A stretch of 46,532 bases of DNA from positions 1-46,532 of IMG/VR virus record IMGVR_UViG_3300017786_000017; one strand, 5' to 3'. A model generated the notes under the pieces. It was not told the origin of the DNA, searched no databases, and was given only the letters and a program-made list of their open reading frames with translations. Shown here in pieces: positions 2,762 through 15,347 of the stretch (positions are counted from its first letter, which is position 1; each line of letters begins with the position of its first letter). Source of the DNA: a virus. Both the position numbers and the translations under genes were made by a program.

Positions 2762-2968
2762 TTATTTTTTTAAACCATATTTAGTAAATTTATACCAAGC
2801 CCTTTCGTGTAGAAAATAAAGCACCATTTTGGAGATAACTTCTACCCCCCCTATAGCTAACCCTGCTCCCCAAGAACCCGTTATAAGTCCTGAAATAATT
2901 ACTGTATCTATTGTTCCTATTATTCTCCATGAAATTGTTTTTGCAATATGTCGTTTATAACTTACCAT
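2762..2968 (-). CDS. DUF2061-family small membrane protein
   Basis: A 68-aa protein matching the compact DUF2061 pattern: KTISWRIIGTIDT at the start, a hydrophobic segment with Gly-rich turns (about residues 17-45), IEV/VEV-type centre (GGVEVISKM) and YFLHERAWYKF at the end. Two short membrane helices are likely. The family function is unknown; from memory, members often sit near sulfate-assimilation genes in bacteria, which would fit this location. It is the last gene of the sulfation cassette, and its start overlaps the end of the HxGH nucleotidyltransferase gene by 14 bases. A role in membrane docking or transport for the cassette is possible but not shown. Confidence 0.72.
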   Translation of the reverse strand: MVSYKRHIAKTISWRIIGTIDTVIISGLITGSWGAGLAIGGVEVISKMVLYFLHERAWYKFTKYGLKK

Positions 2969-3305
2969 CTTTTCTCATTTCAGTTCTGATTTTAGTTGCT
3001 GATATATCTTTTATATCTTTTGGGGGTATGTGTTCTATAACATCATATCCTACACCCCTTCCATAATTTATTGATTCAATATCAGGTATTTTAATAATTT
3101 TAATTTTACCTTCATTAAGTAAATCTTTTAATTCTTTAGATAAATTTAACATTACTTCATCAGCAGTCCAAGGTTGTTTTTCATTTGGTTCTACATCTCT
3201 AATACAAACTAATATGTTTTTGCCTTCATTTAAACGCTGGTCTATTAACCAACGGTGGCCTGGGTGCCAGGGTTGCCAGCGTCCAATAAACATGCTATAT
3301 TTCAT
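2955..3305 (-). CDS. HxGH nucleotidyltransferase (NMN/cytidylyl-transferase-like)
   Basis: A short 116-aa protein of the HxGH nucleotidylyltransferase superfamily. GRWQPWHPGH (residues 8-17) is the nucleotide-binding loop, and ISATKIRTEMR (101-111) is the second signature seen in NMN and pantetheine-phosphate adenylyltransferases. It lacks the QxRN-type motif expected of a true ATP sulfurylase, so an APS-forming role is not supported by motifs even though it is next to an APS kinase gene. The substrate is unknown: a sugar phosphate, polyol phosphate or nicotinamide mononucleotide would all fit. Overlaps of 11 bases with the APS kinase gene and 14 with the DUF2061 gene show tight coupling, so its product may feed the same glycan chemistry. 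Confidence 0.75.
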   Translation of the reverse strand: MKYSMFIGRWQPWHPGHRWLIDQRLNEGKNILVCIRDVEPNEKQPWTADEVMLNLSKELKDLLNEGKIKIIKIPDIESINYGRGVGYDVIEHIPPKDIKDISATKIRTEMRKDGKL

Positions 3306-3759
3306 CTAATATCCTTTTTAATGATTCTTCAGGTGTATCGTTTGTAGTATCAATATTAATAAAATTTTCTTGAGGACCAATATATGCAATTGCTTTCCAA
3401 TGATCACGTTCTCTTGCCTCTGATGTATGGACATAAATTTCTTTTATATTGCTACCTAACAGTGTTTTAAAATCTTCTCTTTGATCTAAATAAGGTGCTA
3501 CTAAAGATACTATAACATCTTCTCCTTGGTTATGTAGATAATGAGCAATACGTTGTGCTGTTCCTACATTTTCAACTCTACCTTTAATAGAGTAATCTTT
3601 ATTTGAGAATAATTCTCTCATATCATCCCCATCTATGCGATAAACTTTATATCTTTTATTTGGGTCCTTTTCATTAACCTTAGATTCTAAATAATCTTTT
3701 AATAAATTAGCTAAAATTGTTTTTCCAGCTGCAGGTTGACCCGTAAACCAATATATCAT
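3295..3759 (-). CDS. cysC: Adenylylsulfate (APS) kinase-like enzyme
   Basis: A 154-aa P-loop kinase. Walker A is GQPAAGKT (residues 7-14). The APS-kinase signature RIDGDDMREL follows near residue 42, then a GRVENVGTAQRIAHYL helix equivalent to the substrate-binding R-x-EN-x-R region, and SLVAPYLDQRE, matching the SPY-type loop of CysC. APS kinase phosphorylates adenosine 5'-phosphosulfate with ATP to make PAPS, the sulfate donor for sulfotransferases, two of which are encoded just upstream. It is shorter than bacterial CysC (about 200 aa), mainly at the C-terminus. APS would have to come from the host. A related small P-loop kinase of other specificity is the main alternative. It overlaps both neighbours (4 and 11 bases). 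Confidence 0.8.
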   Translation of the reverse strand: MIYWFTGQPAAGKTILANLLKDYLESKVNEKDPNKRYKVYRIDGDDMRELFSNKDYSIKGRVENVGTAQRIAHYLHNQGEDVIVSLVAPYLDQREDFKTLLGSNIKEIYVHTSEARERDHWKAIAYIGPQENFINIDTTNDTPEESLKRILDEI

Positions 3760-4514
3760 ACTTTTAAATTTTTAATACCATCCCAATTAGTTTTTTCGGG
3801 AGATAAATGTATGCAATAAGAATCTAAACTTATTATTTGATAAAATATTTTAGAAAATATCCAATCATCATGTCCTGCGTTTTTAGACATAGAAGGATAA
3901 ACATGGTGTAAATCGGGGTATGCTTTATAAAGTGATGGAAGATGAAACAATTGAAAATAACCATATCCTTTAAACTTTTGAATTATGTTTTTAGTTTGGT
4001 TAAAATACTGTTGTGGTACAAAATATTCAAAATCTTCTTCTTCATCTACATTTACTCTACCCATTGTGTATAGATTTAAAGCTTCAAATTCTTGGTCAAC
4101 AAATTCTTCATAGTACCTATAATACCCTGTTCTTTCCATATGATCGGTATCTATACATTTTAATTTTCTTAAACCTATAACTTTTACTCTTTTTGTTTCT
4201 TCATCTATAGGGAAAGTATCCCCAAAATTATCAGGAAGTAAAACATCAGCATCTATATGACAGTACCATTCTTTATCATATCCTATATAATCAAAAGCTT
4301 CATTGATAGCTTCTCCTTTTGAAAATTCTCGATTGTAAAGATTTTTAGATATAATATACTCTAAATTATTTTCTTTGCAAAGTTGGATAGTATCAGTATC
4401 TTCTTCAGTAGTTATAATAATCCACCTTTTAAAAAATCTTTTATTAGGAATACAATATTTAAATAAATGTGCATAATTTACACATACAGTAATAGCATTT
4501 ATATCTATATTCAT
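3756..4514 (-). CDS. GT-A-type glycosyltransferase
   Basis: A 252-aa soluble protein with the GT-A pattern: an N-terminal Rossmann-like start (AITVCVNYAHLF), an IIITTEEDTDT strand and loop, then WYCHIDADVLLP (about residues 83-94) with the DxD metal/nucleotide-sugar motif (Asp88 and Asp90). A late NAGHDDWIF motif near 213-221 supplies acidic residues, as in many galactosyl- or GalNAc-type transferases. It would transfer a sugar from a nucleotide-sugar donor; donor and acceptor are unknown. Its stop overlaps the start of the APS kinase gene by 4 bases, and a sulfotransferase gene ends 13 bases upstream. The context suggests it builds the glycan that the sulfotransferases modify. Confidence 0.72.
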   Translation of the reverse strand: MNIDINAITVCVNYAHLFKYCIPNKRFFKRWIIITTEEDTDTIQLCKENNLEYIISKNLYNREFSKGEAINEAFDYIGYDKEWYCHIDADVLLPDNFGDTFPIDEETKRVKVIGLRKLKCIDTDHMERTGYYRYYEEFVDQEFEALNLYTMGRVNVDEEEDFEYFVPQQYFNQTKNIIQKFKGYGYFQLFHLPSLYKAYPDLHHVYPSMSKNAGHDDWIFSKIFYQIISLDSYCIHLSPEKTNWDGIKNLKV

Positions 4515-4527
4515 AGTTATATTTATT

Positions 4528-5337
4528 TTAATATGTGTTCCATATTGAATAATCTAAATTTGGATATAGTTCTTTTAAATTATCAACATCAGATTTAAAA
4601 TATTCTTTTAACCAAGCTACTGTATTATCATTTATAGAATCTGAATAGGTAGATACAAAGCTTTTTTTAAATCCGGGATCTTTTTCAAGATTATCCGCAC
4701 CTAAAAATGTAAATATTTTATTATATTCCTCCAAAGGATTATTTGCAATTTGTTCTTGTAATCCTACGTAAACATTACTTTTACCAAAAGTATTAATATA
4801 ATTTTTTAAGGTACCAGAGTACAGGCTTCTTTTTAATAAAGTATTTAATGTAGGGGAATTTTTAGTAGAATTTTTAAAATCTAAACCATAAAATCTAGTT
4901 CCCCAACTTGGGTTTTGTTTTTGTATCATATTCCAATGACTAAAAGCTCTAGTAATAGGATCTCTTAATAAAACAATAATTTTTAAATTAGGAAAACATT
5001 CATACATTCTTTTAGTACCAACTAAAGGATTGTCATGAAAATAATTAGGTGATGATTCTCCTCTATATTGTTTACCTATCGGAAAGTACTTAGTATAAAA
5101 GTCTAATCCTTTTTCATAATTTTTATCTATGTTAAAAAAATCAAGTTCTTTGCTACTTTCTTCTCCTAATCCACCTTCTAATTGAGTAATATCTATACTG
5201 TGGAATGCATTTATTTTTCGTTTCCAATATCCTGTTACACAATAAACATTATCATGTTTATTCAAATTTAATGCAGCAGCAGAAGTGCTTCCCTTCATAA
5301 CTCCTACTATTAAAAATGTTGGAAAATTTGATCTCAT
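4528..5337 (-). CDS. PAPS-dependent sulfotransferase (Sulfotransfer_1-like)
   Basis: A 269-aa protein. The 5'-phosphosulfate-binding loop is FLIVGVMKGSTS near residues 8-19, with Lys15 as the expected catalytic or sulfate-binding residue. ESSPNYFHDN (about 94-103) follows. The 3'-phosphate-binding motif is VLLRDPITRAFSHWNM (about 122-137), with Arg125, Arg130 and Ser133. This is the layout of carbohydrate sulfotransferases such as the heparan-sulfate type. It would move sulfate from PAPS to a hydroxyl or amine, probably on a sugar. Length is normal for the family. It overlaps the second sulfotransferase gene by 4 bases (ATGA) and lies in the same unit as the APS kinase that would make its donor. 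Confidence 0.85.
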   Translation of the reverse strand: MRSNFPTFLIVGVMKGSTSAAALNLNKHDNVYCVTGYWKRKINAFHSIDITQLEGGLGEESSKELDFFNIDKNYEKGLDFYTKYFPIGKQYRGESSPNYFHDNPLVGTKRMYECFPNLKIIVLLRDPITRAFSHWNMIQKQNPSWGTRFYGLDFKNSTKNSPTLNTLLKRSLYSGTLKNYINTFGKSNVYVGLQEQIANNPLEEYNKIFTFLGADNLEKDPGFKKSFVSTYSDSINDNTVAWLKEYFKSDVDNLKELYPNLDYSIWNTY

Positions 5338-6152
5338 AGACTGTAGTTAAAGTATTCATAAAACCATGGATAAGTGTTAACTATGTTCTGTGATAGTTGT
5401 TGACCTAAATATTCATTGTATGATTCGGGAACAGGTTTGACTTCTTTACGAATTGTATGATCGCCAAATATACCATGTACTGTATCATCTTCTTGGGTTA
5501 ACTGTTCTACATTATTAAAATCGTGTTGATATCTTTCAATTCCAAAAAAATCGTATACTTTATCTAATTCTATTTGAGGATTAGAAGTTAGATCTTCAAA
5601 TTTGATAAATAAAATATTTTTATCTATACCTTCATCTATTATCTGTTTTAATCTTTCAACAGCTATACCAATTGGAGGAGTTTGTGCCCAATGGTCAACT
5701 CTTTTAGCAGTTGTAGTAGCTTTCATTTCTGCCCAGTTAACTATTCCTGCATCTTTATCTTGATTCTTTCTAAAGTTTTTCTCCATAGATGCATAGACAG
5801 ATCTTAGATCTCTAACCATACAAACTATTTTTGGGTCCGGATAGAAAGAATTTAAAAAGTTATAATGTATACCCCATCCTCTAGATTTATCTATTACGTA
5901 TTTCTTATCTGTAATACCATTAAAAAACCCTTCTACTCCTTGACGGCAAAAATTAAGCCATCCTTTTTTCATTAGTTCAGGATCTTGAGCTTGAAAAGCG
6001 TTATCAGAAGTATAGTTTTTACGAGCAGCAAATAATAATTCTAAAACACCAGAAGTAGGTGTTACATAAAAATCAGGATTTTGTCCTAATATATTTTGAA
6101 GCAGTGTACTACCTGCTCGAGGTAGTGAAGATTGAAAGAATATTTTTTCCAT
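5334..6152 (-). CDS. Second PAPS-dependent sulfotransferase
   Basis: A 272-aa sulfotransferase distinct from its neighbour. The 5'-phosphosulfate loop is SLPRAGSTLLQNIL (about 9-22), of the LPRSGSTLL type, and the 3'-phosphate motif is VCMVRDLRSVYASMEK (about 110-125). A later FIKFEDLTSNPQIELDKVYDFFG segment matches the C-terminal part of Sulfotransfer_1/3 proteins. The different loop sequence (PRAGS rather than MKGS) suggests a different acceptor from the first enzyme, not a recent duplicate. It overlaps the downstream sulfotransferase by 4 bases and the upstream GT9-like gene by 1 base, so all three are probably co-translated. Confidence 0.85.
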   Translation of the reverse strand: MEKIFFQSSLPRAGSTLLQNILGQNPDFYVTPTSGVLELLFAARKNYTSDNAFQAQDPELMKKGWLNFCRQGVEGFFNGITDKKYVIDKSRGWGIHYNFLNSFYPDPKIVCMVRDLRSVYASMEKNFRKNQDKDAGIVNWAEMKATTTAKRVDHWAQTPPIGIAVERLKQIIDEGIDKNILFIKFEDLTSNPQIELDKVYDFFGIERYQHDFNNVEQLTQEDDTVHGIFGDHTIRKEVKPVPESYNEYLGQQLSQNIVNTYPWFYEYFNYSL

Positions 6153-7027
6153 TACTGTTTATTTATCGACTCTACAATTTTATTTACATCAAATACTTCT
6201 CTTAAATCATTATAAGGGATAGAAGAAATATCTTGTGCTAAATTAAAGGGTTGGTAAACAGAACGTTCAAGTTGGGGATCTTTTGTAAAAGGATTAGCTT
6301 GAATATTATTATGTAATTTATAACCAAACATTTTAGGTTTTGTTGTTACCCAACATACAGTTGATTTTACACCCATAGCTGCTGCTAAATGTTGACCAAA
6401 TGAATCTATTAACAAACTTTTTTTAGATAATTGTAATAATATAGCTATACTTCTAAAACCATCTAAGGCATGTAATGTATCTGGGTATTTATATTGGTCT
6501 TCTCTTTTAATGTGGACTATGGTATAATCTTCCTTGTAATGTTGGATTATCTCGTTAACTGCGGGTTCTGGGATGTCTCGTGTCCACGAATAATTAAAAC
6601 CTTGACCCATTGGTCCTCCGTTTGGTTGGATCGCCATAATAGGTTTTTCAGTTTGGTAAAAGGGTTTAAAATATTCTATTTCAGGTTGGGTAAGATAAAG
6701 TTCTGGTTGTTCATTGTTATAATTTAAACCATATATTTTACACCAAGTTCTAAATAAATGTTCTTTTTCGGTTAAAAAAGAAGTGTGGCGATAAGGATCT
6801 TCTATAAAAATTTTGCAATCTTGATCTTTAACATATTTTAAATATGCTCCTCCCATTTCCTCAACCCTAAAACATTCGTTGATGTGGGGATTATTTAAAA
6901 ATACATCAGGATAAGCTGTAACAACTATGATGTGAGAGTTTTTATAACGTTTTCTTAAAACTTTAGTCATGGCAGTTGCCATGATAGATTTTCCTAGACC
7001 TCCGTCTATTTGAAAGATTATATTCAT
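6152..7027 (-). CDS. GT9-like (heptosyltransferase-fold) glycosyltransferase
   Basis: A 291-aa GT-B-like protein. The N-terminus (MNIIFQIDGGLGKSIMATA) has the Gly-rich start of ADP-heptose:LPS heptosyltransferases (GT9). The second half has MAIQPNGGP (about 135-143), the family's phosphate-binding region, a YTIVHIKRED strand, and LLIDSFGQHLAAAMGVKSTVCW (about 205-226), close to the GT9 C-terminal DSGpxHLAaAlG pattern with Phe replacing the usual Gly/Pro. It would transfer a sugar, perhaps to a lipopolysaccharide or virion glycan. It is the first gene of the sulfation/glycosylation block. The 46-base gap upstream holds no recognisable promoter, so it is probably read from the element at 7406-7415. 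Confidence 0.72.
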   Translation of the reverse strand: MNIIFQIDGGLGKSIMATAMTKVLRKRYKNSHIIVVTAYPDVFLNNPHINECFRVEEMGGAYLKYVKDQDCKIFIEDPYRHTSFLTEKEHLFRTWCKIYGLNYNNEQPELYLTQPEIEYFKPFYQTEKPIMAIQPNGGPMGQGFNYSWTRDIPEPAVNEIIQHYKEDYTIVHIKREDQYKYPDTLHALDGFRSIAILLQLSKKSLLIDSFGQHLAAAMGVKSTVCWVTTKPKMFGYKLHNNIQANPFTKDPQLERSVYQPFNLAQDISSIPYNDLREVFDVNKIVESINKQ

Positions 7028-7073: not shown

Positions 7074-7388
7074 CTAGTTATCCCAAGGTCTACCATTTGC
7101 TTCTGTAATAGCAGCTTTTGCCGTAAGTGAAGCAGCAATAGAAGAAGAATTTTCAACTTCAATTGGAGTAGTATCAATCGATCCTGTTACCCATGATAAT
7201 ACAATTCCTTCAGTAAGATCAGCGTATTCTACAAAACTAGGATCACTAGGTGATCCAGTAATAGATAAGTCACCAATTTTTCTAGTGCTAGACCCAGATA
7301 ATTCTGATTCACAAGCATAAGTAATTTCTGTTACTACCCCATCAGCGATAGTTCTTTTAAGATCGTAAATTTTCCAAATATGATTCAT
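7074..7388 (-). CDS. Small phage protein, possible structural or accessory (104 aa)
   Basis: A 104-aa protein starting MNHIWKIYDLKRT. A longer frame begins at 7442, but I chose the ATG at 7388: the longer start would overlap the next gene and would place the conserved ATATTTATAA element inside the coding region instead of 17 bases upstream. The sequence has an N-terminal beta-rich part (YDLKRTIADGVVTEITYACE), a Ser/Gly-rich centre (GDLSITGSPSD) and a C-terminal AAKAAITEANGRPWDN-like tail. Similar small proteins are common in marine phages (I recall a DUF7936-type family, uncertain), with no known function. It probably leads the transcript that continues into the glycosylation/sulfation cassette. 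Confidence 0.65.
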   Translation of the reverse strand: MNHIWKIYDLKRTIADGVVTEITYACESELSGSSTRKIGDLSITGSPSDPSFVEYADLTEGIVLSWVTGSIDTTPIEVENSSSIAASLTAKAAITEANGRPWDN

Positions 7389-7405
7389 TGTATAAATTTT
7401 GTTTA

Positions 7406-7415
7406 TTATAAATAT
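7406..7415 (-). promoter_or_regulatory. Late-promoter-like element before the glycan/sulfation unit
   Basis: An exact ATATTTATAA on the coding strand, 17 bases upstream of the start at 7388. It overlaps the stop codon of the upstream gene. No other copy lies between here and 2758, so it may drive the whole block from 7388 to 2762. Confidence 0.55.
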
Positions 7416-8311
7416 ATATTTTTTAAGTGAGGATACAACCAACTTAAGTATTCTTTATCTAAAAAAGAGTAAAAATTGTCCTGTCTTATATTTACATTTT
7501 TTTCTCTTAATTGGTTTGCAGTATTTTTAGCCCATTTTCTTTTTTCTAATACACTTAATTCAGATAAAGTAAAGTTATAGGGATTTATTTCTTGATCTAG
7601 TTCTAATACCCCATGTTTTGCGGAAATTACATATATATGGTCAAAATTATTTTTTTTAAGTTTTTTTAAAATATTTTTAAAATTAATAGAAACAGAATAT
7701 AAATCTTTTACTTTAGCTTTATAGGACAATTTATCTTTAGTACAAGATAAAAGTGCTATTTTTTTATGCCCTATAAAAATATCTTTAAAATTTTTTTCTA
7801 CTCCAGTATATATATTTTCTTTTTGCTTTTCTATCCATTTATTATATCCTGGGGGTTGGGTAAATATTAATTCTTTTAATCCTTCGGGTAGTAAGTTAGT
7901 TTTATCTCCACTCCATGTAAATTCCTCTACAATGTTATCTTTTTTCTTGTAAAAATTTATAGAATATCGTATTTGTTTAAGGGGTTCATTTTTTAATTGA
8001 GAAAATAACTTATTATTATGAGTCATGTCTATCATCATGTAATGTCTCCAACCTATTAAAATACTTTGTTTTAAAAGATTTTTTAAGACTTTATAATTTT
8101 TTATATCTCCAATTAATACTAAATCAACATCCCAAGTGATGGTATCTGAATTACCATATATTTTTTCTGCAAGATTGCCTACAAGATATAAGTCAAAGTC
8201 TTGGGCTCCTTCTAATTGGATCCATTCTTTATACCAGTTTTCTAAACGTTGTTTTGTGGGAGAATACCAAGCTACCGAAGTAGATATATCACCTATTTTA
8301 CAATAAAACAT
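7406..8311 (-). CDS. Nucleotidyltransferase fused to a DUF6884-like domain
   Basis: A 301-aa two-domain protein. Residues about 38-95 look like a minimal Pol-beta-type nucleotidyltransferase: LYLVGNLAEKIYGN followed by TWDVDLVLIGD, where GN-LA replaces the usual GS and Asp61/Asp63 form the metal-binding pair. Residues about 183-300 resemble the DUF6884/YaaA-like domain: KIALLSCTKDKL (with Cys190), VKDLYSVSINF, YVISAKHGVLELD (about 227-239) and YNFTLSEL. The two families are known separately in phages; their fusion is notable. The substrate is unknown. The domains may cooperate in modifying a nucleotide, RNA or protein. The gene lies between fibre genes and the glycan cassette, 6 bases after a small unknown gene. 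Confidence 0.62.
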   Translation of the reverse strand: MFYCKIGDISTSVAWYSPTKQRLENWYKEWIQLEGAQDFDLYLVGNLAEKIYGNSDTITWDVDLVLIGDIKNYKVLKNLLKQSILIGWRHYMMIDMTHNNKLFSQLKNEPLKQIRYSINFYKKKDNIVEEFTWSGDKTNLLPEGLKELIFTQPPGYNKWIEKQKENIYTGVEKNFKDIFIGHKKIALLSCTKDKLSYKAKVKDLYSVSINFKNILKKLKKNNFDHIYVISAKHGVLELDQEINPYNFTLSELSVLEKRKWAKNTANQLREKNVNIRQDNFYSFLDKEYLSWLYPHLKNIYL

Positions 8312-8650: not shown

Positions 8651-10597
8651 TTATTTTTCTTTCAATCTTTCTGTTCCTTTCCAAGCATTTACTGCTGCTT
8701 CGTCTTTACGCGTACCGATTAGTAGTACATTATATTTACCATCTGTATCTGCAAATAATGTTAATGTGGTTTGTTCTTGATCTACTACACCATATGCCCT
8801 ACCAAAATGATCTTTAGCATTAACCCATATTTGATCATTTTCATTTAGGTACTTATAATAATCAGGTAGATCTATAGTAGCAGTACCATTTTCTACTTCT
8901 ACTTCAAACCTATATAAGTTATCACCTGCTGTTGGGGATTCCACGAAACTGTGAAATAGTTCACACTCTTGAGTTTTACTTGGATTAGGGTGGGGTATTG
9001 CAAAAGTACCTGTAGTTTTAGAAAAACTTCCGTTTACACATAATGTTCTTCCACTTGAAGCTAAACACCCACACATTAAATGATTTCCTAACCCACTACC
9101 AAGATAAAATGTACAAGATATTGCTGTACAAGTATTAGGGCCTGATTCAAATCCTATAAAAATATTTGCAGCTGATGCTCCTTTTACACATTTTCCAGCA
9201 TATGTTCCTATAGCAGTATTACATCCCCCATTGATGGCACAAGCAGCAGTGTTATTATATCCAGTATACATAGCACCATATCCTATTGCTAAATTAAGAT
9301 AACCACCACATATGCTTCTTAGTGCATCTGAACCAATAGCAACATGTCCACCTTGAGTAGATTGTCCTCTCCACATTGCATTAGGTCCAATAACAATAGT
9401 ATCATTTTGTTCACATTGGCAATATCCAGCACAATCTCCTATAAAAATACTTCTAGTTCCAGCTGTAACGCATCGTGCTGCTGATTTTCCAATACCTATT
9501 ATACAACTCGCTGTTGTGTTACCAAACAAAGAAGCACAACCTATTGCAATATTATGATCTCCTGTTGTTACACAAGGTAGTGCGAAAGCTCCTATTCCTA
9601 TATTAATATCAGAAGAAATATTTAACGAGCCACCGTTCACTGAACAAACTCCTATTCCAATATTATAGTAAGAGTTATATTGACATCTTTGGGAAGAAAA
9701 TCCTATTGCAACATTACAACATCTTACGATCCCTGCACATTGGGAAGAATAACCACTACACCCCTCTAAAGCATTAGGCCCTATTGCTATATTGTTTACA
9801 CTACACCATGCATTCTTCATAGCATTACATCCTATAGCCACATTCTGAGACATCAAAACTCCAACGGAGGAGCAGGCGCTAGTGACATTTCTATAAGATA
9901 TAGATCGTCCCAAGAATACATTATCACTAACACAAGCATAGTAAGCACAGCTAACCTTAGGATGTCTAAGAATATCTCTCCCTAAAGTAATATTATTTGA
10001 TACTATTTGTACCCCCCCATTTGGAAATTGGCACACTGGTCCTAAATAACAAGTCTGATTAGATCCACTTAAAAACATAAGATCATTTCCTAGACTTATG
10101 TTATTGTTGGCGAATTGTACATGTTCCCCAATATTATTACCTATACCTATATTACAAGAAGAATGATTAAAAGAAGATACACATGCGGTAGCCCCAGTAC
10201 CACACCCCCCCAAAATACACACACAAATACATTCACTACAACCACTATACCTATTCCCATATCTATACATTTGAGTAGAGATAATCCCAGAATTAGTAAA
10301 GCTTATTACACATCCATATGCATTTTTTCCATTATCATCTCCCTGTGGTAAAAATATAATACAAGGACGGGGACACGATGAAGGGGTTCCCCATCCACTT
10401 CCTGCACATGTAAATGTAATACCACTAATACCATGTGAAGCATCTGGGTATATACATTCTCCAATGGATATATGACATTCTGGGGCATCATTACAAGCAT
10501 ATATGCTGCTACATTCCCCAATAAGGTTATTTTTACATCCCTTATTGTCATGAAAAGACATACTACCTGTAACCCCTAATGCTTGTACCTGTGCCAT
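8651..10597 (-). CDS. Cys-rich tail-fibre/adhesin with YadA-like head repeats
   Basis: A 648-aa fibre. Residues about 130-520 consist of repeats of the form N-I/V-A-I-G-x-x-A, such as NIAIGPNAL, CNVAIGFSS and NIGIGVCS, which build the trimeric left-handed beta-roll of YadA-type heads. The last ~125 residues form a different domain with LFHSFVESP and TIDLPDYYKYLNEND, resembling the conserved C-terminal domain of many phage fibres and surface proteins. By my count there are about 46 cysteines (roughly 7%), extremely high for a phage structural protein. It is likely a receptor-binding fibre or tip on the virion. A near-copy of the late element sits at 10616-10625 inside the end of the upstream gene, so it may have its own promoter. 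Confidence 0.78.
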   Translation of the reverse strand: MAQVQALGVTGSMSFHDNKGCKNNLIGECSSIYACNDAPECHISIGECIYPDASHGISGITFTCAGSGWGTPSSCPRPCIIFLPQGDDNGKNAYGCVISFTNSGIISTQMYRYGNRYSGCSECICVCILGGCGTGATACVSSFNHSSCNIGIGNNIGEHVQFANNNISLGNDLMFLSGSNQTCYLGPVCQFPNGGVQIVSNNITLGRDILRHPKVSCAYYACVSDNVFLGRSISYRNVTSACSSVGVLMSQNVAIGCNAMKNAWCSVNNIAIGPNALEGCSGYSSQCAGIVRCCNVAIGFSSQRCQYNSYYNIGIGVCSVNGGSLNISSDINIGIGAFALPCVTTGDHNIAIGCASLFGNTTASCIIGIGKSAARCVTAGTRSIFIGDCAGYCQCEQNDTIVIGPNAMWRGQSTQGGHVAIGSDALRSICGGYLNLAIGYGAMYTGYNNTAACAINGGCNTAIGTYAGKCVKGASAANIFIGFESGPNTCTAISCTFYLGSGLGNHLMCGCLASSGRTLCVNGSFSKTTGTFAIPHPNPSKTQECELFHSFVESPTAGDNLYRFEVEVENGTATIDLPDYYKYLNENDQIWVNAKDHFGRAYGVVDQEQTTLTLFADTDGKYNVLLIGTRKDEAAVNAWKGTERLKEK

Positions 10598-10598
10598 A

Positions 10599-13500
10599 TT
10601 ATTCTTGTTGTTTTAGTATAAATATTTCTTTTTTTAATTCTTCTATTTGTTCTTGTTGTTGTTGAAGAGCTTTTACAAGAACTGTGGTTAGTTTAGAATA
10701 CTGTACACCATGTATTTCTCCATCTTCTTCATATGATACTAAGTTAGGAAATACTTTTTTAACTTCTTCAGCGATAAACCCAATATCTTTTGTTTTATCT
10801 TGTTTCCATTGAAATTCTACTGGTTCAAGTTTTTTAATATTTTCAATTTGATCCTGTAGAGGTAAAATACATTCTTTGTGTTTTCTAGCTGATGTTTCTA
10901 CAAGTGTTGTAGTACGTGTTGTACCAGCAACACAAGCATTATTCATAAAGGTATAATTAGCAGCTGTTGAGGTTAGGTTAGAACCTACTATAAATGAACA
11001 AGTATGAGAAGCTGTGTTCGAGCAACCTCCTAAAATACCACTACCTTGTCCCAGAGTAGTATTACATTTACCACCTACTATTGAACTAGCATGTCCTGAA
11101 GCACAGTTTAACTGTCCACCACCCACAAAATTCCTTCCACCTGATGCACAGTTCCTAAATCCACCTGCAATGGTACTAACACAATCACCGTTAATATAGT
11201 TACAAACCCCACCACCAATGCTACTGTGAAATGAATGATTGCATATTATATTTGTCTGACCTCCTGATACGGTATTCGCATACCCGCATGTACTGTTTTG
11301 ACGACCACCTCCTATAGTGTTATATTGACCGAATACTGATGTGTTAACATAACCACCTCCTATAGAACCAAAACCAGCTCCGTAACATACTTTATTATAA
11401 CAACCCCCTCCTATAAAACTACATCCTCCACTAATATTATTATAACAACCACCTCCAATACCTGATCCTACATTATTAATTAGATTACCTCTTCCCGCTC
11501 CTATGGAACCGTCTAAAGAGCATACACAATTACATCTTCCACCTCCTATAAAAGAAAAAGAAGAAGCTTTATTACAACACCCACTAACAATTCCAGCAAT
11601 ATTAGCACCGTTAATTATATAATTACAAATACCTGCTCCTATAAAACTATGAGCTCCTGAGCCTGTGTTAAAACAACCTCCTCCAATAAATGTATTATAA
11701 TGAGTAATTATATTACAATGTCCCGAAATTATTGCAGAGGCACCAGCACAAGCTGAAACTGAGCCACTTATTATATTACAACATCCTCCTCCAATAAAGC
11801 CATGGGCAGAACAAGTTTTAATTTCATTATATTCTCCTCCTACAATAGAAGAACCACTATCACCTGTAGTAATACAGTTTAAATGGCCCCCTCCTATAAA
11901 ACTTTTAGGAGCACAAATTGTGTTTGTATCACCTCCTACTACAACACTCTTACACCCAGAAACTGTGTTATTACATCCACCACCTATAAAAGTAAATGCA
12001 TTTGAGCCTGTGTTTAAGTGACCTCCTACAATAGCACTACAACCAATACAAGTTGTTCCACCTGTTACGCATCTTAGTGAATTAGATCTTCCTCCTACTA
12101 TTATGTTATAGCCTTGATGACCACCATTATAACTACTGTAAGTTGAAATAGTATTTTTACATCCTCCTCCTATGAATGATGAATATTCAGCATTACCTCC
12201 CCCATAACTATTAGATATACTGTTGCACTTTCCACCAACAATACCACTACTAGCTCCACCATCGGTTTGGATGCAATTGCAAAGCCCTCCAACTATAGCA
12301 TCAAAGCTAGAGTAAGGACCACTAGTATCAATGCAGTTTCTACCTCCTCCTACTATAGTATTACCACCCCCATGACCAATAGTGTGTAGACAACCACCTC
12401 CTATAAAGTTAAGATTATAGTAACCAGAAATACTACTACCTTTACCTCCTACTATAACATTACACCCATAATACGTGCTTACCGTGTTGCCACAGCCACC
12501 TCCTATAAAATCATGACATCTACCAGATTGACCACCACAGAGTTTATTTAATTGACCACCTCCTATAAAACTAAAATTAGTTGTAACACAGTTTGCACAT
12601 CCATTAACTACTGCTGAACAGCAACTTGCTACACAGTTAAGTCTACCAGCTCCGATAAATCCGTAACAACCTGATACAGTGTTTGTATCACCTCCTACGA
12701 TAACACCTTGATATGCAGATACAGTGTGGTTAGTACCACCTGCTATAACTGATCCTCCATGAGTAATACAGTTATTATATCCACCTCCAATAGCAGAAAC
12801 TGAAGCATTGGGTTGGTTAGCATCTGGTACTACTATTTCATTATTAGAGCCTCCTGCTATAACATGATTACATGATGTAGCTGAACCACTAATTACGTTA
12901 GTACATCCACCTCCTATAAATGCCCCTATTGTATTACAAATATCGTTATCAATACCTGCTCCAACAAAACTTTGAATACCTGAAACAAAGTTTGAATTTC
13001 CACCTCCTATAAAACCACATGCTCCTGAGCCTGTGTTTAGAGTACCACCTGCTATAACTGATGCATCTCCTGTTATGTAGTTTTTACATCCGGAACCTAT
13101 AAAAGATTCTAAACCTCCATTAATACAGTTTAAAGTACCTGCACCTATAAAAGAGCTATCTGCTGCATTACTACTACTTCCTGTGATAGTGTTACTTTCA
13201 CCGCCTCCTATAACAGAACACCTACCTGAACCAAATATAGTGTTAGATCTACCAGCGACTATACCAGTATCATTATCAGCTGTATTATCTCTACCTGCTC
13301 CTATAAAAGCAAAAGAACAATTGGTTGTATTGTTATTACCTGCTCCTATAAAAGAAGACCTGCCAGTAATTGTATTAGTATCACCTCCTGCTATAGTGCT
13401 ACAATCATCTGAAATTGAGTTAAGAGTACCACCAGCAATAGAAGATAAAGTACCTGTGTTTGTATGTCCTGAACCTATTTGTAGAGTTGTACTACCTGAT

Positions 13501-15347
13501 ACACCACCGGTTACTGTTAATCCTATACCTGGTGTGGTCATTGAATTAAACGAAGGTGGTAGAACATACAAACCGTGTGGGGAGAAGTTTGCAGTATCTA
13601 TAAATACGTTATTACATTCTTGTTTAAATGAAATATTACCTTTAGTTTGTCCTGAAGTAGCACAAGCTATTCTACCGTAAATAGCAGCATATAGTTTATT
13701 TGCAGCTGTACTTTTGCCCCAAAATTGAGCTGTTCCTAAAGTATCATTATCCGCTGGGGAAGCTGAATTTCTACAGAAAGTTAAATCTGGGGCTGATGAT
13801 GCACCTGCATCTGTAGAAGTTAATCTTAACAGATCGCCTGTACCTGTATATGTTAAATCTAGGGTAGTACCATCATATCTAAAATTAGAAGATGCTCCTA
13901 AGACTCCATTATCGTTATACTGTACTTCAGTATTTGAACCTGCTGCACCTACAGAACCTGCAGAAATGTTAGTTAAACCACTACCATCTCCTACGAAAGA
14001 ACCGCTAAATACAGAGGCAGAAACTGTGCCTTCTACATCTAGATTGTTTACAAATGTATAGTTTTCTTTACCAGCAGTTAAGTTTGAACCAATAATGTGT
14101 GTGTTACAGTAGTTAGTTGTATTATTAAATCCACCTATTATACTACTTGAAATGGCGTTAATATTAATACAGTTTTCTGCTCCTCCTCCTATAAATGCTA
14201 AATGAGCATTAACTGAGTTTTTACACCCATTTACTATACTTGAAAAACAATATGAACCTGTGTTTTGGCGACCTGCTCCTATAAAAGTACTATAAGCAGT
14301 ATTTGAATTCCCACCTCGTATAAGGTTTTCTTGACCAGCAACAATAGCATTTAAACCCCCTGCCCCATATGCAGATCGAGTTACTTCATTACATACACCT
14401 GCTCCTATAAAACTCCAAGGAACACAACAAATACTTTGTTGACATCCTGCTAATATAGCACTACAACTTGCATTACGTATAGTATTATTTTCACCATTTA
14501 TAATAGAAGAATAGCTTCCAGATATACAGTTAATTCTTCCCCCAACTACATTATTATAAAGACTTCCACCTACTATTCTATTGCTTTGACCTGCGGTTAT
14601 GGTATTACAATCAGAATTAAGTATACAGTTACTACTCCCCCCTATAATAGAAGAACGATTAGAATTAGTTAAAGTGTGATTACCACCTATTGTTATACTA
14701 GAGCTGGGTTCAAGTAAATCTACAAAAGAAGAAGTAACAGTGTAGTCTGGGGTTCCAACCCATATTTTATCTACTGGTAAGTTTGGTACATCATTTGATC
14801 TACCCGAACCAAATATTTCTCCTGAGCCATTTGAGGCATTAACTTTTTTTACAATACCTAAATTTTGTATGAGATTATCTGAACCTTGGGGTTTTATATT
14901 CGTATAACTACCTGTAGCAGCAACATAAATAGTATCTCCTGATGAGAAAGCTGAAGTATCAACCCCATTAATAAGACCTGTTATAGTAGCAAAGCCATCT
15001 GAACCCGCGGTAAGATTTTGAGATAAAATACCATGAGCAGGCATTTTGGAAGCAACTGATGCTGAAGCTGCTATTACAATAGCTGTTCCATTAGTTGTTG
15101 AAGTTACATGTACTGGGGTTCCTTTAAGGAGAGAAAATGATTCACCATTTTGAACAGCAAATGTTAATTTTTCTGCTTCAACCTCAGTAAAAGATAAATT
15201 ACCAGAGCCATCTGTTACAATGGTTTGACCTACATCCCCATCTGATGTGGGGTAATTTAAACCACTAGCTGTGAATTCAGAAGTGACATTTAAAGAATTT
15301 AAAGCGGCATCTGATCCGCTAACAATGACTTTTTTCCAGTTTGGCAT
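10599..15347 (-). CDS. Giant Cys-rich beta-solenoid tail fibre with S74 chaperone tail
   Basis: A 1582-aa fibre. Residues 1-215 resemble phage fibre N-termini (MPNWKKVIVSGSDA start, probably virion-attached). Residues about 218-430 and 630-1455 are dozens of GGG/N repeats such as SFIGGGCNNTVSG and SSIVGGKCN, predicted to wind a long beta-solenoid. Between them (about 430-630) is a non-repetitive module shared with the 17926-21657 fibre. The end (about 1486-1582) is a Peptidase_S74 intramolecular chaperone: SARKHKEC at the predicted self-cleavage Ser, then FQWKQDKTKDIGFIAEEV, VQYSKLTTVLVKAL and a coiled coil. S74 domains trimerise the fibre and usually cut themselves off. About 75 cysteines are present by my count, nearly all in repeats. 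Most likely a host-recognition fibre. Confidence 0.85.
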   Translation of the reverse strand: MPNWKKVIVSGSDAALNSLNVTSEFTASGLNYPTSDGDVGQTIVTDGSGNLSFTEVEAEKLTFAVQNGESFSLLKGTPVHVTSTTNGTAIVIAASASVASKMPAHGILSQNLTAGSDGFATITGLINGVDTSAFSSGDTIYVAATGSYTNIKPQGSDNLIQNLGIVKKVNASNGSGEIFGSGRSNDVPNLPVDKIWVGTPDYTVTSSFVDLLEPSSSITIGGNHTLTNSNRSSIIGGSSNCILNSDCNTITAGQSNRIVGGSLYNNVVGGRINCISGSYSSIINGENNTIRNASCSAILAGCQQSICCVPWSFIGAGVCNEVTRSAYGAGGLNAIVAGQENLIRGGNSNTAYSTFIGAGRQNTGSYCFSSIVNGCKNSVNAHLAFIGGGAENCININAISSSIIGGFNNTTNYCNTHIIGSNLTAGKENYTFVNNLDVEGTVSASVFSGSFVGDGSGLTNISAGSVGAAGSNTEVQYNDNGVLGASSNFRYDGTTLDLTYTGTGDLLRLTSTDAGASSAPDLTFCRNSASPADNDTLGTAQFWGKSTAANKLYAAIYGRIACATSGQTKGNISFKQECNNVFIDTANFSPHGLYVLPPSFNSMTTPGIGLTVTGGVSGSTTLQIGSGHTNTGTLSSIAGGTLNSISDDCSTIAGGDTNTITGRSSFIGAGNNNTTNCSFAFIGAGRDNTADNDTGIVAGRSNTIFGSGRCSVIGGGESNTITGSSSNAADSSFIGAGTLNCINGGLESFIGSGCKNYITGDASVIAGGTLNTGSGACGFIGGGNSNFVSGIQSFVGAGIDNDICNTIGAFIGGGCTNVISGSATSCNHVIAGGSNNEIVVPDANQPNASVSAIGGGYNNCITHGGSVIAGGTNHTVSAYQGVIVGGDTNTVSGCYGFIGAGRLNCVASCCSAVVNGCANCVTTNFSFIGGGQLNKLCGGQSGRCHDFIGGGCGNTVSTYYGCNVIVGGKGSSISGYYNLNFIGGGCLHTIGHGGGNTIVGGGRNCIDTSGPYSSFDAIVGGLCNCIQTDGGASSGIVGGKCNSISNSYGGGNAEYSSFIGGGCKNTISTYSSYNGGHQGYNIIVGGRSNSLRCVTGGTTCIGCSAIVGGHLNTGSNAFTFIGGGCNNTVSGCKSVVVGGDTNTICAPKSFIGGGHLNCITTGDSGSSIVGGEYNEIKTCSAHGFIGGGCCNIISGSVSACAGASAIISGHCNIITHYNTFIGGGCFNTGSGAHSFIGAGICNYIINGANIAGIVSGCCNKASSFSFIGGGRCNCVCSLDGSIGAGRGNLINNVGSGIGGGCYNNISGGCSFIGGGCYNKVCYGAGFGSIGGGYVNTSVFGQYNTIGGGRQNSTCGYANTVSGGQTNIICNHSFHSSIGGGVCNYINGDCVSTIAGGFRNCASGGRNFVGGGQLNCASGHASSIVGGKCNTTLGQGSGILGGCSNTASHTCSFIVGSNLTSTAANYTFMNNACVAGTTRTTTLVETSARKHKECILPLQDQIENIKKLEPVEFQWKQDKTKDIGFIAEEVKKVFPNLVSYEEDGEIHGVQYSKLTTVLVKALQQQQEQIEELKKEIFILKQQE
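10616..10625 (-). promoter_or_regulatory. Late-promoter-like element inside the end of the upstream fibre gene
   Basis: The coding strand reads ATATTTATAC, one mismatch from the intergenic element, and ends 18 bases before the start at 10597. It lies inside the last codons of the 1582-aa fibre gene. The spacing matches the other copies, which argues against chance. Confidence 0.4.
10990..13450 (-). repeat. Long tandem array encoding GGG/N beta-solenoid repeats
   Basis: The DNA repeats a degenerate unit of about 36-60 bases whose complement contains the often-repeated [19 protein letters not shown] stretch encoding FIGGG. Units differ enough that this is protein-level periodicity, not a recent DNA amplification. 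A second block of the same type covers roughly 14060-14700. Confidence 0.75.

Follow-up and report, generated by a model that had tools for sequence, protein, structure and literature searches.

A compact nucleotidyltransferase paired with APS kinases: a candidate ATP sulfurylase in a predicted phage-borne glycan sulfation cassette

In a 46,532-nucleotide viral sequence (IMG/VR record IMGVR_UViG_3300017786_000017, positions 1 to 46,532; hereafter the window), seven minus-strand open reading frames (ORFs) are tightly packed at 2762-7027, each overlapping its neighbor by 1-14 bases or separated from it by a 13-base gap. From 7027 downwards they encode a GT9-like glycosyltransferase, two sulfotransferases (ST_A and ST_B), a GT-A-like glycosyltransferase (GT_A), a kinase of the adenosine 5'-phosphosulfate (APS) kinase family, a small nucleotidyltransferase and a DUF2061 protein (Table 1). 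We consider it likely that they constitute a phage-borne system for sulfate activation and glycan sulfation with the nucleotidyltransferase, 116 aa in length, serving as a compact ATP sulfurylase; here the genes, their motifs, their conserved pairing, gene fusions and a complementary genome distribution are direct observations, whereas every catalytic step, the identity of the acceptor and any advantage to the phage are predictions. It also appears rather probable that this protein is a third kind of ATP sulfurylase, which replaces CysDN in some marine Bacteroidota, fills the vacant place beside AprBA in SAR11, works in those Marinimicrobia and Marine Group III archaea whose APS kinase is accompanied by no known sulfurylase, and provides hundreds of phages with a route from sulfate to 3'-phosphoadenosine 5'-phosphosulfate (PAPS). 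An earlier note on this DNA had recognized the packed genes and proposed sulfation, an idea that proves largely right, although it gave no role to the nucleotidyltransferase, for which the comparative evidence indicates a probable ATP sulfurylase.

A compact nucleotidyltransferase linked to APS kinases

The small protein contains, in order, the motifs GRWQPWHPGH, NYGRGVGY and ISATKIR. Across 34 viral homologues the GR.QP.HxGH, YGRGVGY-region and ISATKIR motifs are kept, with R9, H14, H17, R83 and R107 being invariant, and cellular homologues display the same motifs with small variations. The structure model (predicted local distance difference test, pLDDT, 80) finds its best matches in PPAT and NMNAT, in the N-terminal fold, and the invariant R9, H17 and R107 seem to correspond to R11, H19 and R136, the adenylyl-transfer residues of NMNAT from M. 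thermautotrophicus. The protein shares with NadM and phosphopantetheine adenylyltransferase the HxGH and ISxTxxR motifs of adenylyl transfer along with the N-terminal fold, but differs from these nicotinamide mononucleotide (NMN) and phosphopantetheine adenylyltransferases in that most of the acceptor-binding half is missing and in its family-specific YGRGVGY motif. Its identification as a nucleotidyltransferase in the earlier note was borne out by CTP_transf_like, its sole Pfam match; the canonical Sat domain PF01747 gave no match, nor did the CysD NCBIfam model up to E 0.01, and the equivalog and subfamily cut-offs for NMN adenylyltransferases were missed (35-40 bits versus 127-181). Of the fifty structural matches listed for the model none is an ATP sulfurylase, although the two folds may still be related.

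When viral contigs were searched with the kinase, 368 relatives were recovered; in the 80 best loci, genes for the nucleotidyltransferase (78/80) and DUF2061 (70/80) lie downstream on the same strand. A reverse search with the nucleotidyltransferase, also counted over 80 loci, found the kinase in 78. A small haloacid dehalogenase (HAD) phosphatase accompanies the pair in 45 of the 80 kinase loci, mostly between both genes; its weak match to Pnkp1 faintly hints at a 3'-phosphoadenosine 5'-phosphate (PAP) phosphatase, and the cassette in the window includes no HAD gene.

The same association recurs in cells. A genome scan detected 467 cellular relatives, of which 80 were fetched; in 38 of 79 cellular loci a co-directional APS kinase lies within 3 kb of the gene, and most of these overlap it or are within 20 bp. 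The nucleotidyltransferase directly follows the APS kinase in Marinimicrobia, Bacteroidota and Marine Group III archaea. Two loci (L100 and L111) encode fusions of the APS kinase and the nucleotidyltransferase with both Pfam domains present, a further protein (L142) joins the nucleotidyltransferase to a divergent kinase, and in two Chitinophagaceae of the Bacteroidota (L118, L133) DUF2061 is fused to the APS kinase with the nucleotidyltransferase as the next gene. One run of genes (L115) comprises a canonical APS kinase (8.5e-70), the nucleotidyltransferase, an aldolase-like gene, a CysQ-like phosphatase, a flippase and sulfotransferases. In SAR11 a version of 126-130 aa lies immediately ahead of a membrane protein, AprB and AprA, with the identity of AprB confirmed. 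As a separate observation, at several loci of Bacteroidota and Marine Group III (L101, L102, L117, L119, L123, L124) the nucleotidyltransferase is found beside S-adenosylmethionine synthetase-like and adenosylhomocysteinase-like genes.

Distribution relative to known sulfurylases

Among 50 genomes with the gene, canonical Sat is present in 6, CysD in 2 and an APS kinase in 42. In a sample of 196 Flavobacteriales genomes, 84 carried an APS kinase under the cut-off used, and CysD occurs in 77 of the 78 of these without the gene and in none of the 6 with it (Fisher 1.7e-8); in the SAR11 family (n=147) the gene is found in 58 of 67 AprA-positive genomes versus 20 of 80 others (p=2e-14), and both p-values overstate independence and are indicative only, as the genomes are incomplete and the gene-bearing ones related, which weakens the case to that extent. 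Canonical Sat is present in 3 of the 67 AprA-positive SAR11 genomes, and in 31 genomes of this family the gene and AprA are close and on the same strand. This agrees with the literature: Ca. Pelagibacter ubique possesses AprBA with sat and cysDN being absent (PMC5069961), and most SAR11 lack ATP sulfurylase (PMC10356861). Since the gene lies beside APS-consuming kinases or APS-making reductases, and is present where known sulfurylases are absent, it is best read as encoding an enzyme that makes or cleaves APS. A literature search for a new or missing ATP sulfurylase, with subscription papers and preprints outside its scope, found no paper.

SAR11 is among the most abundant groups of marine cells, and its route from sulfite to sulfate has been puzzling because it has an APS reductase with no recognized ATP sulfurylase, leaving a gap in how the oxidation could be completed with a gain of ATP. 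The 126-130-aa gene beside aprBA makes this sulfurylase question directly testable. In a tree with few informative columns the viral and Marinimicrobia proteins are intermixed, which suggests that the gene has been exchanged between viruses and cells.

The kinase, sulfotransferases and glycosyltransferases

The kinase passes the curated PF01583 cut-off (63 bits versus 21.1) and, when aligned with M. tuberculosis (Mtb) CysC, retains the P-loop and DGDxxR together with both arginines that contact APS and the aromatic clamps. Among its relatives G7, G12, K13, D45, R48 and R61 are invariant and Y56 nearly so; D45, R48, Y56, R61 and the lid aromatic in NFIDID match the APS contacts of Mtb CysC, whose residue roles are known from its structure (PMC4373884). 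An APS-kinase-family enzyme, as the earlier note had it, that likely phosphorylates APS is thus predicted, most APS-contact residues being retained.

Both sulfotransferases of that note are likewise upheld, as each scores over the cut-off for PF13469/PF00685 and displays the 5'-phosphosulfate-binding and 3'-phosphate-binding motifs (LPRAGSTLL and VRDLRSVYAS; GVMKGSTSAA and LLRDPITRAFS). ST_B, a phage protein, aligns with heparan sulfate 3-O-sulfotransferases at E=1.3e-13, and ST_A shows a weak match to NoeE and none in a sequence search of the PDB. The single sulfotransferases of the Synechococcus phages S-SKS1, S-SRM01 and S-SCSM1 are ST_A homologues (~30% identity); the inspected neighborhood of S-SKS1 differs in having no annotated APS kinase, and the few, distant relatives of the kinase in the phage collection occur in phages other than these three.

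The two glycosyltransferases stand on motifs and, for GT_A (3756-4514), a low-confidence GT-A-like model, while neither matched Pfam or, in a sequence search, the PDB. In the GT9-like protein GGLGK and DS..QH are invariant in 18 homologues, the resemblance to GT9 being by motif only. GT_A contains a DxD motif, and its model (mean pLDDT 62.8) has GT-A matches such as SpsA and SunS, in a set that mixes GT2 enzymes with nucleotidyltransferases.

Proposed pathway and alternative explanations

We propose that the nucleotidyltransferase, which belongs to neither the CysD nor the Sat family, would convert ATP and sulfate to APS and pyrophosphate, and that the adjacent kinase would use a second ATP to convert APS to PAPS. 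ST_A and ST_B would then transfer the sulfuryl group onto sugars placed by the GT9-like and GT-A-like enzymes, on a glycan that may be borne by virion proteins or by the host surface; both had been named in the earlier note, and a glycan target is likely. Because the unit follows the fibre genes, the virion is slightly favored as the acceptor. DUF2061 might be a membrane partner of sulfate activation, possibly in sulfate entry. The proposed reactions, and the pairing with an APS kinase gene, are those of bacterial PAPS synthesis by CysD/CysN (or Sat) and CysC, with which the nucleotidyltransferase shows complementary presence in the one Flavobacteriales sample; the phage differs in having a 116-aa NMNAT-like sulfurylase candidate and no CysN GTPase. 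Sulfate activation is likewise combined with a sulfotransferase and glycosyltransferases in loci for sulfated capsules and in the sulfation of rhizobial Nod factors (NodPQ, NodH, NoeE), from which the phage set differs in being phage-borne and modular and in its sulfurylase candidate. Such an apparently autonomous supply of PAPS would allow phages to sulfate glycans, a kind of surface chemistry to which phage research has paid little attention.

Several observations weigh against this proposal. The profile and fold likeness of the nucleotidyltransferase is to NMN and phosphopantetheine adenylyltransferases and not to ATP sulfurylases, and the C-terminal third of its model is of low confidence. 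The kinase falls below the NCBIfam TIGR00455 apsK equivalog cut-off (59.2 versus 138.7 bits), and its lid is shorter and rebuilt, with RDPKGLY, which includes the catalytic Lys562, replaced by RERDHF and the lysine lost. Where 4 kb or more of upstream DNA was available, roughly half of the kinase loci show no sulfotransferase-like gene within the available DNA. Of the 58 SAR11 genomes that carry both the gene and AprA, 27 do not have them close together; copies away from aprBA, where read, adjoin a divergent P-loop kinase in a non-sulfur neighborhood (Rieske-type, enoyl-CoA hydratase), and Nitrospira genomes with the gene already carry a Sat-APS kinase fusion. These SAR11 and Nitrospira copies are a poor fit to simple replacement.

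The cassette could instead be conventional, with the kinase using host APS to make PAPS and the nucleotidyltransferase supplying the glycosyltransferases with an unrelated activated sugar or alcohol. Sulfotransferase modules that occupy the same slot with neither kinase nor nucleotidyltransferase, and must draw on host PAPS, are in line with this, as is the presence of CysD in many Flavobacteriales. We nevertheless regard it as unlikely, given that the nucleotidyltransferase tracks the kinase and not the glycosyltransferases in 78 of 80 loci, replaces CysD beside true APS kinases and adjoins aprBA in SAR11.

Somewhat more doubtful is the possibility that the kinase and nucleotidyltransferase, together with the HAD phosphatase found in relatives, belong to a pathway for a nucleotide-activated group other than sulfate, comparable to heptose activation or the Campylobacter phosphoramidate pathway. 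The divergent kinase lid, the HAD gene seen with the pair in those 45 loci, the SAR11 kinase pairs in non-sulfur surroundings and a fused relative that lies close to DNA genes in phages of Stenotrophomonas could all be accommodated by such a pathway, but the APS-contact residues are kept in the kinase, and homologues pair with canonical APS kinases (at least 230 bits), CysQ-like genes, sulfotransferases and APS reductase. The fused relative of Stenotrophomonas phage DLP_6 (L331, 3590-4318), annotated as hypothetical, combines a divergent kinase with a nucleotidyltransferase carrying a YGRDVGY motif. That the genes are mere passengers, exchanged among phages and marine cells and of no use to this phage in sulfation, might account for the hypervariable slot, the occurrence of the core in one of 78 newly fetched primase relatives and the intermixed tree, but is very improbable in light of intact, overlapping ORFs, conserved catalytic motifs and a core found in hundreds of viral contigs.

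Modular organization of the cassette in viral relatives

The earlier note took the seven genes for one dedicated system, and a single conserved seven-gene operon is rejected by the gene order in relatives, where three separable, recombining modules occur apart: GT9-ST_A, ST_B-GT_A and APS kinase-nucleotidyltransferase-DUF2061. In the 80 kinase loci ST_A is present in 18, ST_B in 9, GT9 in 25 and GT_A in 6; all seven families come together in few loci only (L008 and L036), in a different order. Among the 78 primase relatives, GT9-ST_A or ST_B-GT_A modules occur with no kinase. A Pfam-recognized sulfotransferase is found in 18 of 50 kinase-bearing phage records, and, when divergent candidates are counted, 24 of 50 kinase loci that include 4 kb or more of upstream DNA have one. 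On these locus counts and sulfotransferase frequencies, the kinase and nucleotidyltransferase form the core, and the sulfotransferase-glycosyltransferase pairs are interchangeable. The slot itself, bounded by the fibre genes on one side and the GIY-YIG/primase genes on the other, holds variable cargo, and in other phages (L179, L207-L209) it is filled by carbamoyltransferase (NodU-like) genes.

Other settings of the core were also observed. In certain large viral contigs (L048, L051, L052, L061, L062) a kinase-HAD-nucleotidyltransferase core lies in a different conserved neighborhood with no DUF2061 gene and no adjacent sulfotransferase. In another phage group (L294, L269, L325 and many relatives) a DNA methyltransferase gene and then structural genes come after the pair, with a divergent sulfotransferase-like gene (L294) or a GT11-like gene (L269) nearby.

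Table 1. Features of the cassette region, in window coordinates
Feature	Position	Strand	Evidence
GT9/GT-B-like glycosyltransferase	6152..7027	-	phrog_8954 6.2e-7 (function unknown); motifs
Sulfotransferase ST_A	5334..6152	-	PF13469 1.4e-19; relatives in cyanophages annotated sulfotransferase
Sulfotransferase ST_B, heparan-sulfate 3-O-sulfotransferase-like	4528..5337	-	PF13469 5.1e-7; PDB 3bd9 1.3e-13
GT-A-like glycosyltransferase	3756..4514	-	HIDADV DxD motif; low-confidence model with GT-A matches
APS-kinase-family enzyme, putative PAPS synthesis	3295..3759	-	PF01583 4.2e-17; PDB APS kinases 6.6e-7
Compact 116-aa HxGH nucleotidyltransferase, candidate ATP sulfurylase	2955..3305	-	CTP_transf_like 1.3e-6; motifs; genome context
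DUF2061 small membrane protein	2762..2968	-	PF09834 3.7e-22
Small conserved phage protein, phrog_7802	7074..7394	-	Recurs directly upstream of GT9 in relatives
TATTTATA promoter-like element	7407..7414	-	13 bp ahead of gene start at 7394

Transcription unit, host and neighboring genes

The DUF2061 assignment of the earlier note is secure (79 versus the Pfam cut-off of 23.1 bits). The late-type element that it placed at 7406-7415 exists, but reads ATATTTATAA (TATTTATA) on the coding strand, where that of T4 would be TATAAATA, and so differs from the T4 late promoter in orientation; moreover, it precedes the additional gene at 7074-7394. On the coding strand TATTTATA is found 6-21 bp upstream of nine minus-strand gene starts in the window (at 2750, 7407, 10617, 16931, 21676, 22614, 29231, 42360 and 45328), against a background in which 2.4% of the window falls within 30 bp upstream of a gene start, and a scan of the window for TATAAATA on the coding strand returned 0 cases at that distance before gene starts. 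Because the element sits upstream of this extra gene, the transcription unit likely comprises eight genes rather than seven, probably headed by the 7074-7394 gene.

By primase and baseplate the nearest cultured relatives are Flavobacterium immutoviruses (47-49% identity), and therefore this phage probably infects a marine bacterium of the Bacteroidota. A cyanobacterial host, as for the cultured ST_A-bearing phages, was rejected on the same two proteins.

Directly upstream of the cassette, 7406-8311 encodes a protein with a C-terminal DUF6884 domain, with no homologue among the 80 kinase loci. Beyond it lie long, repetitive fibre-like proteins (8651-10597 and 10599-15347) with FIGGGxxN / IAGGxxN-type repeats and patches of high cysteine.

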